DNA of 37,227 nucleotides from Trueperaceae bacterium. Its GTDB lineage: Bacteria > Deinococcota > Deinococci > Deinococcales > Trueperaceae. The DNA lies in the NCBI GenBank assembly GCA_013697735.1, contig JACCWH010000028.1:1-37227 (forward strand). Reading direction: 5' to 3'. The position numbers were made by a program, and so were the translations under genes. Below the pieces are notes generated by a model. That model did not search any database, was not told the DNA's origin, and worked only from the letters and a program-made list of their open reading frames with translations. Shown here piece by piece: positions 23,496-30,503 of the stretch (position 1 is the first letter of the stretch; each line of letters opens with the position of its first letter).

Positions 23496-24563
23496 GTGAC
23501 GAACACGCGTCGCCCACCGAACCGCAGCACGAGCACGGGCGCCGCGATCGCGGACGCGGCGAGCGAGCACGCCTCACCGGGCGCCCGAACGACGCCGTCC
23601 GGTTCGCGCATCACGATCCGCGACGTCGCGCGCTCGGCCCACGTCTCCATCGGCACCGTCAGCCGCGCGCTGAACGGCCGGCCGGGCGTCCACCCCGACA
23701 CCCGTCGGCGTGTGATGGCGGCGGTGGCCGAACTCGGCTTCGATCCCGACCAGGCTGCACGCGAACTCTCGAACCGGCGGCCCGTGCGCGTGGGGCTGAG
23801 CGTCGCGCGTGGGTTCCGCCGGCTCATCCCCTTCTTCGTCCTCTTCAAGGAGCACCTCCTCGACGGCCTCGCTTCGGGCGGCTTTCGCGTGCACGACGTC
23901 CCCACGGGCGCCGATGGCCTGCCGACGGCCGAAGCAGACCTCTACCTCCTCTTCGGTGCCCACGCCGACGACCCGCGAATCGCTCATCTCGAGGCGCAGG
24001 AGCGACCGTTCATCCTCGTCGGCCACCGCAAGGGTGTGCGCTCCGTCGCTGCGGACGACGTGCAAGGTGGCCGCCTCGCTGCGGAGCACCTCCTCCGCCT
24101 CGGTCACCGCGACATCCTGCACCTCACCGGCGCACTCTCGTCGCAGGCGTTCTTCGACCGGGCCCGGGGGTTCGGAGCGGCGCTGGCCGACGCCGACGTC
24201 GACGTCGGAAAGCCCTCGATCTGCGAGGATCCGAGCGCGCTCGCCGCCTACCGTGCCTTTCGTACGCTCCTCGAGTCGGGTGCCCGTCCCACCGCGGTCT
24301 TCGCCGCGACCGACGAGATGGCGGTCGGCTGCCAGGCAGCTGCGGTCGACGCCGGCCTCGCCATTCCGGGCGATCTCTCCGTGGTCGGCTTCGACGACAT
24401 GCCCGAAGTCGGCTTCGATCTCACCACCGTCCGTCAGGACATCGGTGAACTCGCGCGCATCACCATCGACCTCCTCCACGAGGCGCTCGCGGACGCTCCC
24501 GTGCGCTCCGCATTTCTCCCCGTCCACCTCGTCACCCGCGGCAGCACCGCCGAGAGGAGGTGA
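23496..24563 (+). CDS. LacI-family transcriptional regulator
   Basis: The 355-residue repressor has an N-terminal DNA-binding domain (about 38-95) with ITIRDVARSAHVSIGTVSRALNG and the hinge-helix region LGFDPDQAARELSNRR. A periplasmic-binding-protein-like effector domain follows. VAADDVQGGRLAAEHLLRLGHRDILHL and STGD-equivalent FAATDEMAVGCQAAAVDAGLAIPGDLSVVGFDDMPE are typical. The 38 residues before the HTH are Ser/Thr/Ala-rich and unusual in length. The start is GTG 23496, preceded by AGGGGGA. It very likely controls itself and the downstream transporter through the operator at 23462-23479. The effector is probably a sugar. Confidence 0.93.
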   Translation: MTNTRRPPNRSTSTGAAIADAASEHASPGARTTPSGSRITIRDVARSAHVSIGTVSRALNGRPGVHPDTRRRVMAAVAELGFDPDQAARELSNRRPVRVGLSVARGFRRLIPFFVLFKEHLLDGLASGGFRVHDVPTGADGLPTAEADLYLLFGAHADDPRIAHLEAQERPFILVGHRKGVRSVAADDVQGGRLAAEHLLRLGHRDILHLTGALSSQAFFDRARGFGAALADADVDVGKPSICEDPSALAAYRAFRTLLESGARPTAVFAATDEMAVGCQAAAVDAGLAIPGDLSVVGFDDMPEVGFDLTTVRQDIGELARITIDLLHEALADAPVRSAFLPVHLVTRGSTAERR

Positions 24564-24605
24564 GCTTCCGAGAACCGCTCGCCTCCGCACGGTCCGACCT
24601 CGCTC

Positions 24606-24624
24606 GCGCGGTTTCACTCCGCGC
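24606..24624. repeat. Intercistronic inverted repeat before the binding-protein gene
   Basis: GCGCGG (24606-24611) and CCGCGC (24619-24624) flank a 7-nt loop between the regulator stop and the solute-binding protein start. It could attenuate read-through or stabilise the 5' end of the transporter message. Confidence 0.4.
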
Positions 24625-24645
24625 CTCATCGATTTAGGAGTCATC

Positions 24646-25869
24646 ATGCGTACGATCGCCCTGTTCATTCTCGGCGCTGCCCTCGTGGGCGGCGCGTTCG
24701 CCCAGTCCATCCGCATCATGGGGTACGGCGGCAGCGACCCCGCCATCCTCGTTCGCCTCCTCGACGAGGTCGTCGGCGCGCAACTCGCCGAAGAGGGCAT
24801 CACCGTCACGTACGAGCCGCTCGAGGGCGACTTCAACGCGGCGCTCTTCAACGCCCTCTCCGCCGGAACGGCCGCCGACATCTTCTACATCCCCGTCGAG
24901 ACGGCGCCCGGCATCATCGCGACGGGCAAGGTCCTGCCACTCGACGGCGTGATCGACACCTCGCAGTTCATCGACTCCCTGGTCGAGGCCTACACCGTCG
25001 ACGGAACGGTCTACGGCGTCGCCAAGGACTTCAACACGCTCGCCATCCACTACAACATCGATCTCTTCGAGGAGGCCGGCGTCGAGGTGCCGAACGAGAA
25101 CGACACCTGGGAGACCTTCGCCGACAAGCTCCGCGGCGTCTCCGCGCTCGGCGACGACGTCTACGGCGCCTGCTTCCCCGCCGGTTGGGATCGCTTCGGT
25201 GCCTTCGCCTTCGGGGCCGGTTGGCAGCCATTCGACGCCGACGGCCGCAGCAACCTCCAGGATCCGGCGCTCGTCGAGGCGGTCACCTGGTACACCGACC
25301 TCGTGCGAGAAGGCGTCGCAGTGCAGCCTTCCGACATCGGCCAGGGCTGGACGGGCGGCTGCTTCGCCACCGACCAGGTCGGCGTCGCCATCGAAGGTGC
25401 CTGGATCCTCGGCTTCCTGCGCGACGAGGCCCCGAACCTGCAGTTCGGTACCACCTCCATGCCCATCGGACCATCCGGTGAGCGCGGCAACTTCCTCTAC
25501 ACGGTCGCCTACGGCGTCAATACGGACTCGCCCAACCGCGACGCCGCCGTGCGCGTGCTCGAAGCCCTCGTGAGCCCGGAGGCCCAGCAGTGGGTGCTCG
25601 AGCAGGGCCTCGCCATCCCCAGCCGGACTGAGCTCGCCGACAACCCCTTCTTCGACGAAGGGACGCCGGAGGCCGAAGCCAACCGCATCGTCTTCGCTGG
25701 CGCCGACGACGGGAACGTCTACGGCTTCCAGTTCGGCCGCATCGGCACCGAATGGATGAACCCGATCAACAGTGCCTTGGTCGAGATCATGACCGGTCAA
25801 TCGACCGTCGACGAGGCGCTCTCTGGGGCGCAGGCCGACCTCGACATCGTGATGGATCGCGTCCGCTGA
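24646..25869 (+). CDS. ABC transporter substrate-binding protein, sugar type
   Basis: The 407-residue protein is a family 1 extracellular solute-binding protein (MalE/UgpB-like cluster B). A short signal peptide (1-19, cleavage likely after GGAFA) is followed by SIRIMGYGG. Segments GTAADIFYIPVETAPGIIATGKVLPLDGVI, YGVAKDFNTLAIHYNIDLFEEAGV, ETWETF-like DTWETFADKL and AIEGAWILGFLRDEAPNLQFGTTSMPIGPSG are characteristic. There is no lipobox cysteine, so it should be soluble in the periplasm rather than lipid-anchored. Two cysteines (GACFPAG and GGCFATD) could form a disulfide. TTAGGAG precedes ATG 24646. It delivers its ligand, probably an oligosaccharide, to the two permeases downstream. Confidence 0.92.
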   Translation: MRTIALFILGAALVGGAFAQSIRIMGYGGSDPAILVRLLDEVVGAQLAEEGITVTYEPLEGDFNAALFNALSAGTAADIFYIPVETAPGIIATGKVLPLDGVIDTSQFIDSLVEAYTVDGTVYGVAKDFNTLAIHYNIDLFEEAGVEVPNENDTWETFADKLRGVSALGDDVYGACFPAGWDRFGAFAFGAGWQPFDADGRSNLQDPALVEAVTWYTDLVREGVAVQPSDIGQGWTGGCFATDQVGVAIEGAWILGFLRDEAPNLQFGTTSMPIGPSGERGNFLYTVAYGVNTDSPNRDAAVRVLEALVSPEAQQWVLEQGLAIPSRTELADNPFFDEGTPEAEANRIVFAGADDGNVYGFQFGRIGTEWMNPINSALVEIMTGQSTVDEALSGAQADLDIVMDRVR

Positions 25870-25913
25870 GGCAGCCGACCCAGGCGTAGCGAACGCACCG
25901 ACGACGCGACTGC

Positions 25914-25939
25914 GTGGAGGGCCGACCCCGGCCCTCCAC
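25914..25939. repeat. Strong hairpin between the binding protein and permease genes
   Basis: GTGGAGGGCC (25914-25923) and GGCCCTCCAC (25930-25939) form a perfect 10-bp stem with a 6-nt loop. No T-run follows. Its position, directly after the binding-protein gene and before the first permease, matches intercistronic stems that stabilise binding-protein mRNA and let it accumulate over permease mRNA (as known for malE-malF). Confidence 0.6.
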
Positions 25940-25958
25940 CCTCAGAGGGGACCCGACC

Positions 25959-27068
25959 GTGCGCTACCACCGTCAAGACACCGTGGCCGCCTACCTCTTC
26001 CTGCTGCCGTTCCTGCTGCTGCTCACGATCTTCTTCGGCTACGCCACGATCCGGGCCGTCTACTTCAGCTTCACCGACTACGACCTCTTCACCACGCCGA
26101 ACTGGGTGGGGCTGCGCAACTACGTCGACCTCTTCCGCGACCCGCTCTTCCTGAGTGCGTTGCGCAACTCGGTCCTCTTCGCCATCGTCGTCACCACCAT
26201 CCAGACGTTCTTGGCCTTGGTGATGGCGTCCGTGCTCAATCAAAAAGTGCGGGGCATCGGATTCTTCCGCGCGGCATTCTTCATGCCGAGCGTGACGAGT
26301 TCCGTGGTGATCACGCTCATCTTCCTGTGGATGTTCCAACGGCGCGGCCTGTTCAACTATCTCACGCACCAGATCCAGAGCGCAGCTCCGCTCATTCTCA
26401 CCTTCTTGGCCATCGTCGTCGTGGTCCAGGTGGCCCACGTGGCGTGGGAGCGCTCGCGCCGGCTGCCCGCCGGCCTCTTCGATCCCGCACTGCTCGTCGT
26501 CTCGCTCCTCGCCGCCGGCGTCGGCACGTGGCTCCTCGCCGTGACCGGCGTGGTCGGTGCCCGCGACCTCCCCCCTGTCGACTTCATCTGGCTCCAGACG
26601 CGCGCCACCATCCCCCCGGGCGCACCGTTCTGGCTCTCCGTCCCCATCCCGCTGGCGGCGATCATGATCCAGAACATATTCACCACCGTTCCGACGTTCA
26701 TGCTCATGTTCCTCGCCGGGCTCCAGGACGTGCCCAAGAGCCACTACGAAGCCGCCTCGCTCGACGGCGCCTCCCCCGTGCAGCAGTTCTTCCAGATCAC
26801 CATCCCGTCGGTCCGTCCCGTCACGTTCCTGGTGCTCACGCTGTCGATGATCGGCACGCTGCAGATGTTCGATCAGGTTGCCATCTTCGGCGACGCAGCC
26901 CCGTTGCGATCGATGGTGACGCTGGCATACTTCGTCTACAACCGGATGTTCCCCGGGGCGCAGACGCCCGAGGTCGGCTTCGCCGCCGCCGGCGCGATCT
27001 TCCTGGCGCTCCTCACGCTCACCGTGGTGCTGATCCAGCGCCGCCTGGTGCGTTCGGAGGCGAGCTGA
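25959..27068 (+). CDS. Sugar ABC transporter permease, MalF-like, with extra membrane segments
   Basis: The 369-residue protein is a binding-protein-dependent permease. The start AAYLFLLPFLLLLTIFFGYATIRAVYFSFTDYD is typical of MalF/UgpA. The EAA loop that contacts the ATPase reads YEAASLDGASPVQQFFQITIP. Typical family members have about 290-310 residues and six helices. Here about 70-85 residues are inserted after RGLFNYL (residue 135), containing two further hydrophobic stretches (about 143-163 and 175-199), giving probably eight helices. GTG 25959 follows AGAGGGG; the earlier in-frame GTG 25914 lies in the hairpin and is rejected. The next gene begins 1 nt after the stop. Confidence 0.88.
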   Translation: MRYHRQDTVAAYLFLLPFLLLLTIFFGYATIRAVYFSFTDYDLFTTPNWVGLRNYVDLFRDPLFLSALRNSVLFAIVVTTIQTFLALVMASVLNQKVRGIGFFRAAFFMPSVTSSVVITLIFLWMFQRRGLFNYLTHQIQSAAPLILTFLAIVVVVQVAHVAWERSRRLPAGLFDPALLVVSLLAAGVGTWLLAVTGVVGARDLPPVDFIWLQTRATIPPGAPFWLSVPIPLAAIMIQNIFTTVPTFMLMFLAGLQDVPKSHYEAASLDGASPVQQFFQITIPSVRPVTFLVLTLSMIGTLQMFDQVAIFGDAAPLRSMVTLAYFVYNRMFPGAQTPEVGFAAAGAIFLALLTLTVVLIQRRLVRSEAS

Positions 27069-27069
27069 C

Positions 27070-28521
27070 GTGGCGACCACCGGTGGGCTCAGCTTCCCCG
27101 ACGACACCACACACCTCGATCCGCGAGCCTTCGACCGCTGGCAGGCCCGACGCCGTTGGGCGAAAGCCGGGCTGATCTACGCCGTGATGCTCGCGTTCGC
27201 GATCGTGTTCATCGGTCCCATCCTCTTCGCAGCAGTATCGTCGATCAAGACCGATCCACTCGAGTACCCTCCGAGCCTCGCGATTCCGCAGCTGCAACCG
27301 AAGAACTGGTCGGCCTCGGCGCGACTCGGCGCCGCCGGCGCCGGCGACCGCCTGTTCGGTGGCTTCGCGCCCGGTGCGGTCGTCCCCTTCGAGATCACCT
27401 ACTTCGTCCGGGAGGGCCTCGACGTGACCCCGCCCGAGGTCGTGGTACCGCGGCGGCGCCCCGGCGCCGGCCCTGGCGCCGTCCTGGCGATGGACTTCGC
27501 TGCCGACTACGCGAGCGTCGGCGACCTGACGATCGTGCGCCGCCAGCCGAGCCTGGCCGACGAGACGGGGGCTATCCCGGGGGAGCTCGTCACCTTCGCC
27601 TTCACCGTCGCCTACGTCGGTGAAGGCCCTACGACGGAGCGGCTCCCGCTCGACGTGACCGCCGAGGTCGGCATGACCTACGTCGATTCGACGATCACCG
27701 CGAGCCGCCTCGAACGGCGCGGCCGTACGGCGTCGTTCGAGAACGCCGCCCCGGGCGTCCTCGGCTACGTCTTTCGCAACTACGTCCGCGTGTTCAACGA
27801 GGTTCGCACGCCGGCGACGCGCCAGAGCCTCTTCCTCGTGTGGATCGGCAACAGCTTCGTCTTCGCCTTCTTCCGCATCATCATCACGCTGCTGCTCGCG
27901 TCGATGGCCGGCTACGCGCTGGCGCGACTCCGCTTCCGCGGTCGCGAGGCGATCTTCATGCTCGTGCTCTTCGCGCAGATGGTACCGCTGCAAGTCCTCT
28001 TCATCTCGAACTACCTGGTCCTCCGCGACGGCATCGTCTCGATCGATGGCTTCAAACTCTCCACCTTGTGGGGGTTTCCGGACGGGATGCTCAACAGCCT
28101 CACCGGGCTCCTGTTCGTGACCGCGCTGAACGCTGGAGCCGTGTTCATCATGAAGCAGTTCTTCGAGTCGATCCCGCGCGAGGTCGAGGAGGCGGCGATG
28201 ATCGACGGCGCGAGCCATTGGCGGCGCTACTGGAGCGTGGTGCTGCCGATGGCGCGGCCCGCACTCGGCGCACTCACGATCATCACCTTCCAGGGGGCGT
28301 GGAACGACTTCTTCTGGCCCTTCATCGTGCTCACGAGCCCCGAGACGATGAAGACGCTCCCGATCGGCCTCCTCTCCTTCCGCAACATCTACGGCGGGGT
28401 GGGCGACTGGGGCCTCATCCTCGCCGGCGCGGTCCTCAGCGCACTTCCGGTGATCGTCCTCTTCGTGGTCTTCCAACGCTACTTCCTCGAGGGCGTCTCG
28501 TTCGGGGGCGGCAAGGAGTGA
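27070..28521 (+). CDS. Sugar ABC transporter permease, MalG-like, with large loop domain
   Basis: The 483-residue protein is the second permease subunit. The first helix (about 33-57) and the AVSSIKTDPLEYPP segment are normal. Instead of a short loop, about 160 mostly beta-type residues (about 75-235) follow before VFRNYVRVFNEV and the second helix (GNSFVFAFFRIIITLLLASMAGYALARL). The remaining helices and the EAA motif EEAAMIDGASHWRRYWSVVLPMARP are typical. Common MalG-like proteins have about 275-300 residues. The inserted stretch should lie outside the membrane; its part PGELVTFAFTVAYVGEGP recalls Ig-like/DUF11 beta-sandwiches. The start is GTG 27070. No ATPase gene follows. Confidence 0.88.
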   Translation: MATTGGLSFPDDTTHLDPRAFDRWQARRRWAKAGLIYAVMLAFAIVFIGPILFAAVSSIKTDPLEYPPSLAIPQLQPKNWSASARLGAAGAGDRLFGGFAPGAVVPFEITYFVREGLDVTPPEVVVPRRRPGAGPGAVLAMDFAADYASVGDLTIVRRQPSLADETGAIPGELVTFAFTVAYVGEGPTTERLPLDVTAEVGMTYVDSTITASRLERRGRTASFENAAPGVLGYVFRNYVRVFNEVRTPATRQSLFLVWIGNSFVFAFFRIIITLLLASMAGYALARLRFRGREAIFMLVLFAQMVPLQVLFISNYLVLRDGIVSIDGFKLSTLWGFPDGMLNSLTGLLFVTALNAGAVFIMKQFFESIPREVEEAAMIDGASHWRRYWSVVLPMARPALGALTIITFQGAWNDFFWPFIVLTSPETMKTLPIGLLSFRNIYGGVGDWGLILAGAVLSALPVIVLFVVFQRYFLEGVSFGGGKE

Positions 28522-28559
28522 CGGCTGCACGGGGCTCGCCCTCCGCGCCGGCGTCCTGG

Positions 28560-28565
28560 TAGATT
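28560..28565 (+). promoter_or_regulatory. Candidate -10 box of the debranching enzyme gene
   Basis: TAGATT lies 57 nt before ATG 28623. The predicted transcript would begin near 28572, right at the foot of the inverted repeat 28573-28604, so the gene may have its own structured leader. Confidence 0.35.
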
Positions 28566-28572
28566 CGAGATG

Positions 28573-28604
28573 CCCGGGTCGAGTGCCGCCGCACTCGCCC
28601 CGGG
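28573..28604. repeat. 14-bp inverted repeat upstream of the debranching enzyme gene
   Basis: CCCGGGTCGAGTGC (28573-28586) and GCACTCGCCCCGGG (28591-28604) match at 13 of 14 positions with a 4-nt loop. No T-run follows. It may end the transporter transcript, cap the 5' end of the next mRNA, or bind a regulator. Confidence 0.55.
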
Positions 28605-28622
28605 CCTTCCCTAGGAGTTGCG

Positions 28623-30503
28623 ATGGATTTCCGGCACAACGTCGTGCTCAAAGAGCACTACACCTTCTTCGTCGGCGGCGCCGAGGCCGGAGCCGACGGT
28701 GGCGAGCACGGCCTCTACAACCGCGACACCCGTATCCTCTCGCGCTATGCCTGGCGCTTCCTGTCGGGGAGCGAAGGTCGGTTCCAAGCACTCGTGATCG
28801 ATAGCCCGCGGCCCGACACGCTCCACGCACACCACGCGCTCATTGCCGGACCGTCGCAGCTCGTGGCGGTGCGGCGGACGCTGCACGCCTGCGCGAACGG
28901 GCTCGACGACGAGCTCGTGATCGAGAACACGTCGCTCGACCGGCAGTCGATCAGCGTCGAACTCGATGTCGTGGCCGATTTCGGTGACCTCTTCGAGGCG
29001 CGCGGATGGCACGCGATCGAACGCGCGGCGCCGATCGGGCACGTCGAAGCCACGGCGGTCGAGTTCCGTCATCGCGCCAGCGACGGCCTCGAGATAGCTG
29101 TTCGCGTCACCTTCGACGCGCTCGCCGCCGCCCGACCCGACGGGGGCGATTGGGAGCTCTCGCTCGCACCCGGCGAGTGCGTGACGCTCTGCGCCGAGGT
29201 GCGCGTCGACAACCCCCTCGACACACCCCCGCACGATCCGATCTCCTACGACGCGTGGCGCTCGGGGTTCTCGAGCGACGATCTCGCGCATGGCGTGGTC
29301 GCCCGCGCGGTCGACGATCTGCGTGGGCTGCTGCTCTTCACCGAGCACGGCCCCGTGCCCGCCGCCGGCATTCCGTGGTTCGTAGCGGCGTTCGGCCGAG
29401 ATGCGCTCCTGAGCGCCCACATGCTGCTGCCGCTCGCGCCCGAGGTCGCAGCCGGCACGCTGCGCTACCTCGCGCACCACCAGGGGCGCCGCGTGGACGC
29501 CTTCCGGGCCGAAGAACCGGGCAAGATCATGCACGAACTCCGTTTCGGTGAGCTGACCCGAATGGGGCGGGTGCCGCACGGGCCCTACTACGGCACCGTC
29601 GATGCCACGCCGCTCTTCGTGTCACTCGTCGATGCATACCGGCGCGCCACGGGTGACATGGAGCTCGTGCGGTCGCTCCGACCGGCGTGGGAAGCCGCGC
29701 TGGCATGGATCGACGACTACGGCGACCTCGACGGTGACGGGTTCGTGGAGTTCACGCCCGCCCCGCCGGGCGAGGGGCTCAACGTGCAGTCGTGGAAGGA
29801 CTCGGGCGACTCGATGAGCCACGCCGACGGCACGCTCGCGGCGGGTGCACTGGCGGTGTCCGAAGTGCAGGGGTACGTCTACGCAGCATTTTGCGCTGCG
29901 GCCGACCTCCTCGAGGCCGAGGCCGACGCCGAGGGGGCCGAGCGCTGGCGCGCACGCGCCACGACGCTCGCCGCGCGCTTCCACGACGCCTTCTGGCTGG
30001 ACGATCTCGGTACCTACGCCATGGCGCTCGATGGCGCCAAGCGCCCCTTGCGCGTGCAGAACTCCGACGCGGGTCAGCTCCTCTGGACCGGCATCGTCCC
30101 CGAGCACGCGGCGCCGCGCCTCGTGGCGACGCTCCTGTCGCCGGCGCTCGCCTCCGGGTGGGGCATTCGAACCCTCGGCGCGGAGGAGGTTCGCTACAAC
30201 CCGGTCAGCTATCACAATGGGTCGGTATGGCCGCACGACACGGCGCTCATCGCCGGCGGCTTCGAGCGCTACGGCTTCACGTCCGAAGCGGCCAGCCTCG
30301 GCGACGCCCTCTTCGACCTCGCCCGAGCGCAGCCCGACGGGCGCCTCCCGGAGCTCGTCGCCGGCTATACGCGCGACGACCGTGCACCCGTCCCCTACCC
30401 CGTCGCGTGCCGGCCCCAGGCCTGGGACGCCGCCGCGCTCCTCTACCTGCTCACGCTCCGTCGGCGCCCACCGAAGCGTGCACTCGTCGCAGCGTTCCCC
30501 TGA
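28623..30503 (+). CDS. Amylo-alpha-1,6-glucosidase (glycogen-debranching-type) protein
   Basis: The 626-residue protein has the N-terminal beta-sandwich of bacterial glycogen-debranching-like proteins (about 1-195, with FVGGAEAGADGGEHGLYNRDTRILSRY) and an (alpha/alpha)6-barrel (about 225-620). Barrel landmarks are GIPWFVAAFGRDALLSAHMLL, EEPGKIMHELRFGE, GTVDATPLFV, NVQSWKDSGDSMSHADG and NPVSYHNGSVWPHDTALI. The acidic residues in EEPGKIMHE and WKDSGDS are candidate catalytic groups. There is no signal peptide, so it should act in the cytoplasm on imported or stored alpha-glucans. AGGAG precedes ATG 28623. Its position suggests it processes what the upstream transporter brings in. The last 53 bp overlap the convergent nucleosidase gene. 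Confidence 0.88.
   Translation: MDFRHNVVLKEHYTFFVGGAEAGADGGEHGLYNRDTRILSRYAWRFLSGSEGRFQALVIDSPRPDTLHAHHALIAGPSQLVAVRRTLHACANGLDDELVIENTSLDRQSISVELDVVADFGDLFEARGWHAIERAAPIGHVEATAVEFRHRASDGLEIAVRVTFDALAAARPDGGDWELSLAPGECVTLCAEVRVDNPLDTPPHDPISYDAWRSGFSSDDLAHGVVARAVDDLRGLLLFTEHGPVPAAGIPWFVAAFGRDALLSAHMLLPLAPEVAAGTLRYLAHHQGRRVDAFRAEEPGKIMHELRFGELTRMGRVPHGPYYGTVDATPLFVSLVDAYRRATGDMELVRSLRPAWEAALAWIDDYGDLDGDGFVEFTPAPPGEGLNVQSWKDSGDSMSHADGTLAAGALAVSEVQGYVYAAFCAAADLLEAEADAEGAERWRARATTLAARFHDAFWLDDLGTYAMALDGAKRPLRVQNSDAGQLLWTGIVPEHAAPRLVATLLSPALASGWGIRTLGAEEVRYNPVSYHNGSVWPHDTALIAGGFERYGFTSEAASLGDALFDLARAQPDGRLPELVAGYTRDDRAPVPYPVACRPQAWDAAALLYLLTLRRRPPKRALVAAFP

Follow-up and report, generated by a model that had tools for sequence, protein, structure and literature searches.

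The window analysed here, a 37,227-nucleotide stretch from a Trueperaceae bacterium (contig JACCWH010000028.1), encodes a MalG-like ABC permease in which the loop between the first two transmembrane helices (TM1 and TM2) runs to ~195 residues. This raises the question of whether the loop carries a true folded domain, as the original prediction proposed, and what such a domain would do for the transporter. The genes of the operon region and the segments considered below are, by position in the window:

23496-24563, + strand, LacI-type regulator (PF00356, PF13377)
24646-25869, + strand, sugar-binding protein SBP_bac_8/SBP_bac_1, 407 aa (PF13416, E 4.9e-27)
25959-27068, + strand, MalF-like partner permease, 369 aa (PF00528), whose orthologues adjoin the MalG gene
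26388-26543, + strand, extra transmembrane hairpin of MalF, residues 144-195 (hydropathy peaks at 145-163 and 177-195)
27070-28521, + strand, MalG-like ABC permease with the insert, 483 aa (PF00528, E 5.9e-18, residues 278-472)
27247-27828, + strand, extended P1 loop between TM1 and TM2, residues 60-253 (flanked by AlphaFold2 helices 18-59 and 254-286)
27352-27756, + strand, beta-domain proper, about residues 95-229 (from AlphaFold2 strands, limits set by hand)
27448-27483, + strand, loop PRRRPGAGPGAV, residues 127-138, candidate contact loop (conserved, low model confidence)
28623-30503, + strand, glycogen-debranching-type glycosidase, GDE_N_bis/GDE_C (PF14742, E 2.8e-24; PF06202, E 3.6e-9)

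A folded beta-domain in the TM1-TM2 loop

The core of the permease is a clear BPD_transp_1 protein (65.7 bits against a Pfam cut-off of 26.4), with 278 as the first matching residue, and its EAA motif was identified by alignment as EEAAMIDGA. Its closest solved relatives are AlgM2, SugB and MalG, to which it aligns only from about residue 250; against the MalG equivalog model NF008231 it scores 101.5 bits, under the 261-bit threshold. In an AlphaFold2 model built on a 39-row alignment, helix 18-59 corresponds to TM1 and helix 254-286 to TM2, and the region between them is beta-rich, with strands at residues 104-114, 123-125, 148-150, 154-163, 169-182, 194-197, 202-207, 213-215 and 220-223 and pLDDT values above 90 in most 10-residue blocks of the insert. 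The same fold was predicted for the isolated insert (pLDDT 89, pTM 0.84). The large beta-rich domain originally proposed is thus found in the modelled loop, although its limits are tighter than the 27280-27780 (+ strand, residues 71-237) first given, the domain proper occupying about residues 95-229. Permease paralogues elsewhere in these genomes, mostly frames of 280-330 aa, match only from about residue 250, and the insert is conserved at the protein level over five families of the order, indicating that it is not a chance feature. We conclude that the folded beta-domain in the TM1-TM2 loop of this MalG-like permease is real and conserved.

Similar motifs, QLQPKNWSASARLG and YVFRNYVRVFNE, border the insert on its two sides (27250-27312 and 27757-27810), as if the usual MalG P1 motif had been duplicated around it.

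Within the domain, residues P127, G132 and G134 reach conservation values of 0.93-0.97, and the block 131-140 combines a mean conservation of 0.67 with a pLDDT of 68. Conserved in spite of the model's low confidence there, the loop 127-138 is a candidate contact site.

The order of the helices bears on the side of the membrane at which the domain lies. A basic ARRRW motif precedes TM1, and the EAA motif comes an even number of helices further on. The EAA motif faces the ABC subunit in known importers. With the established importer topology, these features would place the EAA loop in the cytoplasm and the beta-domain on the extracytoplasmic side, in agreement with the outer location first supposed. 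Residues 235-416 of the permease align to positions 267-449 of the MalF profile, making the TM1-TM2 loop of MalG the fold-equivalent of the TM3-TM4 loop of MalF, which in E. coli bears the P2 domain (MalF 91-271; PMC3150292). The comparison with MalF P2 in the original prediction therefore stands as regards the subunit, which is indeed the other one, but the loop is not a different one as had been stated. Both P2 and the present insert are folded beta domains ahead of the BPD_transp_1 core at a fold-equivalent site, differing in subunit and in that PF14785 (MalF_P2) has no match in the insert, in 38 relatives or in the bacterium's own genome. The P1 loop of E. coli MalG shares the identical loop and subunit, but is short and without a domain; its contact with MalE in E. 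coli/Salmonella has been reported (Daus 2007, by its title as cited in PMC3150292), and genetic work cited in PMC3150292 puts the MalE N-lobe mainly near MalG.

Relatives and distribution of the insert

No known Pfam family, carbohydrate-binding families included, matches the insert in any of 39 members, and DUF11 does not appear even at E 1. Searches of the insert against NCBIfam and the sequences of solved structures returned nothing significant. Foldseek gave no match to the insert below E 0.03 in the PDB or below E 0.001 among viral models; the best PDB rows were weak matches to Ig-like domains (Ig, IL-12 p40 and DsbD, with TM-scores up to 0.30), and MalF P2 was not among the best 50 fold matches listed for the isolated domain. 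A match of the full model to 2r6g_F, considered as possible evidence of homology to MalF P2, spanned 502 columns but with an rmsd of 18 and was not accepted.

The Ig-like/DUF11 impression behind the original prediction has some basis, as the second half of the insert is weakly similar to DUF11 (PF01345): profile A1 matched a DUF11 protein at E 3.9e-5 in the genome search, and hhalign gave a probability of 42%. Membership in DUF11 was rejected, since the insert gives no match at the 24.6-bit Pfam threshold and the profile-profile similarity is weak; at about 135 aa with extra strands, it also differs from DUF11 in architecture.

Orthologues with the full insert are present in all five sampled families of the order, and an insert profile search was positive in 86 of 111 Deinococcota genomes. 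Profile A1 proved too diverse for the genome scan, and the narrower profile A2 was used there. The survey across Deinococcota permeases resolved two transporter families. Family A, with the long insert, occupies 59 places in 58 of the 111 genomes, and in nearly all of its loci with enough flanking sequence the binding-protein gene lies directly upstream. Family B, a second transporter family of proteins of about 400-440 aa, has a shorter insert. The binding protein at 24646-25869 had no close solved relative in the solved-structure search. The binding proteins of family B are near-perfect matches to the solved entry 7c0f and its kin, indicating that two distinct importers carry the domain; we take 7c0f to be a Thermus entry concerned with beta-glucosides.

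The MalF partners of family B (L085:3647-4897, L088:3552-4817 and L048:3092-4426) are extended at the N-terminus by roughly 100-130 aa, which adds hydrophobic segments ahead of the first core helix. In one Thermaceae bin (L081:3515-10345), the family B MalF, MalG and binding-protein genes are followed by GAPDH-, phosphoglycerate kinase- and triosephosphate isomerase-like genes, as judged by eye.

Beyond the phylum the insert is rare: it was detected in 5 of 296 Spirochaetota genomes, in one SAR324 bin, and in three MalG matches among 295 genomes of a gammaproteobacterial order, where a fourth match was a DUF11 repeat protein and not a MalG. Four Gammaproteobacteria group together in a permease-core tree, and two Spirochaetota sequences fall within a starred set that includes Trueperaceae (98/97), a placement which suggests that the Spirochaetota copies may reflect transfer or misbinning. 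Contig QNBH01000194.1 (L061), labelled Spirochaetes, bears an operon close to those of Trueperaceae, with 58% identity in the insert.

Linkage to a MalF hairpin

The extra hairpin of the partner MalF lies in the loop that joins core helices 3 and 4. It is conserved throughout family A, is also carried by the inspected non-Deinococcota members, and by hydropathy is absent in three family B examples (L048-L050). With MalF residues 125-235 as the query, the hairpin was found at 59 places in 58 of the 111 Deinococcota genomes, and 59 of 59 lie in the same genomes as, and at neighbouring coordinates to, the long-insert MalG places (compared by eye, genome by genome). None was found elsewhere in the phylum among the 111 genomes with this single-segment query, which could miss a much diverged hairpin.

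No ABC ATPase gene is among those identified at 23496-30503 in the window, and the OB_MalK (MalK-like) matches come from other contigs (C114 and C224), so the importer likely uses a shared ATPase.

Possible roles of the domain

A docking or bracing role on the outer face is the most likely one for the domain. The explanation we put forward, to which we assign an even chance of being correct, is that the MalG domain and the MalF hairpin form an outer platform for the binding protein. In a Deinococcota importer of oligosaccharides, the extracytoplasmic beta-domain grafted into the P1 loop of the MalG-type subunit would join the MalF hairpin in broadening the transporter's outer face, and the resulting platform would position the binding protein over the pore, in the manner of E. 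coli MalF P2 but from the pseudo-equivalent subunit. This is supported by the confident fold, wide conservation and predicted outer side of the domain, the upstream binding-protein gene, the linkage and co-divergence with the hairpin, the fold-equivalence to the site of MalF P2 and, as the title of Daus 2007 has it, a contact of the P1 site with MalE. Contact with the binding protein, in docking or in ligand transfer, is proposed from the site and by analogy. The lack of a significant fold match for the isolated domain weakens the proposal. That binding proteins dock to most CUT1 importers in the absence of a domain of this kind also counts against it.

Co-divergence was computed over 30 family A operons with the MalG and MalF cores controlled. 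Distances in the insert and in the binding protein gave a partial r of 0.11 (p 0.11), with no detectable co-divergence beyond the core; co-evolution of these two is therefore unsupported, which further weakens the platform proposal. For the insert and the MalF hairpin the partial r was 0.61, and for the insert and the MalF core r was 0.42. Among 180 conservation-matched column sets drawn from MalE, the MalG core and the MalF core, the maximum r was 0.46, below the hairpin value; these sets replaced a first control of fastest-evolving columns, which was saturated. The hairpin comparison was one of several tried, on few and related sequences and with overlapping control sets, and the insert-hairpin co-divergence is best taken as a lead, not as proof of contact.

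This pattern, in which the insert follows the hairpin and the MalF core and not the binding protein, together with the strict insert-hairpin linkage, would suit a subunit brace, the domain packing on periplasmic MalF, including the hairpin-associated segment, and stabilising the MalF-MalG pair while hardly touching the binding protein. We regard this as possible but not probable, as the clade structure of a set of about 30 sequences can by itself produce some residual correlation, and as family B keeps a shorter insert without the hairpin, indicating that the hairpin is not needed for retention of the domain. Just as tentative is a further reading, in which the MalG domain and MalF hairpin may constitute one co-evolving accessory module of the outer face, previously undescribed, whose way of holding the binding protein or gating ligand transfer differs from that of E. 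coli MalF P2.

It is unlikely that the domain instead touches some other outside partner, such as a cell-wall or S-layer component, a periplasmic glycosidase or a free oligosaccharide. A debranching-type glycosidase gene does adjoin the permease gene, and the weak similarity to DUF11, repeats of which occur in surface proteins, points in the same direction, but the insert matched no carbohydrate-binding family. Least probable of all is that the domain is neutral or serves stability only, an ornament inherited from an ancestral transporter: the insert does evolve faster than the permease core (mean conservation 0.59 vs 0.71), but it holds many near-invariant residues, a conserved flexible loop among them, and is kept in all sampled long-family members, also after apparent transfer to other phyla.

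A large P1 insert in MalG is not in itself a new idea. A region of ~500 aa between TM1 and TM2 was described in 2008 in MalG1/2 of the Thermotogales, with its function not described; it was reported in no other MalG, and for Deinococcus and Thermus only MalF was mentioned (PMC2246101). Like the present case, it is a large extra TM1-TM2 region in a sugar-importer MalG, but it measures about 500 aa against about 160-195, and the resemblance noted here is one of position. A search of open-access papers turned up no description of the Deinococcota insert, of how it folds or of its association with the MalF hairpin; it is the hairpin-insert linkage that is new. Enteric MalF and Thermotogales MalG are already known to carry large folded inserts close to where the binding protein sits. 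The Deinococcota domain adds a third case, compact and conserved, in MalG's TM1-TM2 loop; accompanied by a matching change in MalF, it provides a comparative handle on the function of such domains, and its members include proteins of Thermus and Meiothermus, genera that often yield proteins suited to structural study.
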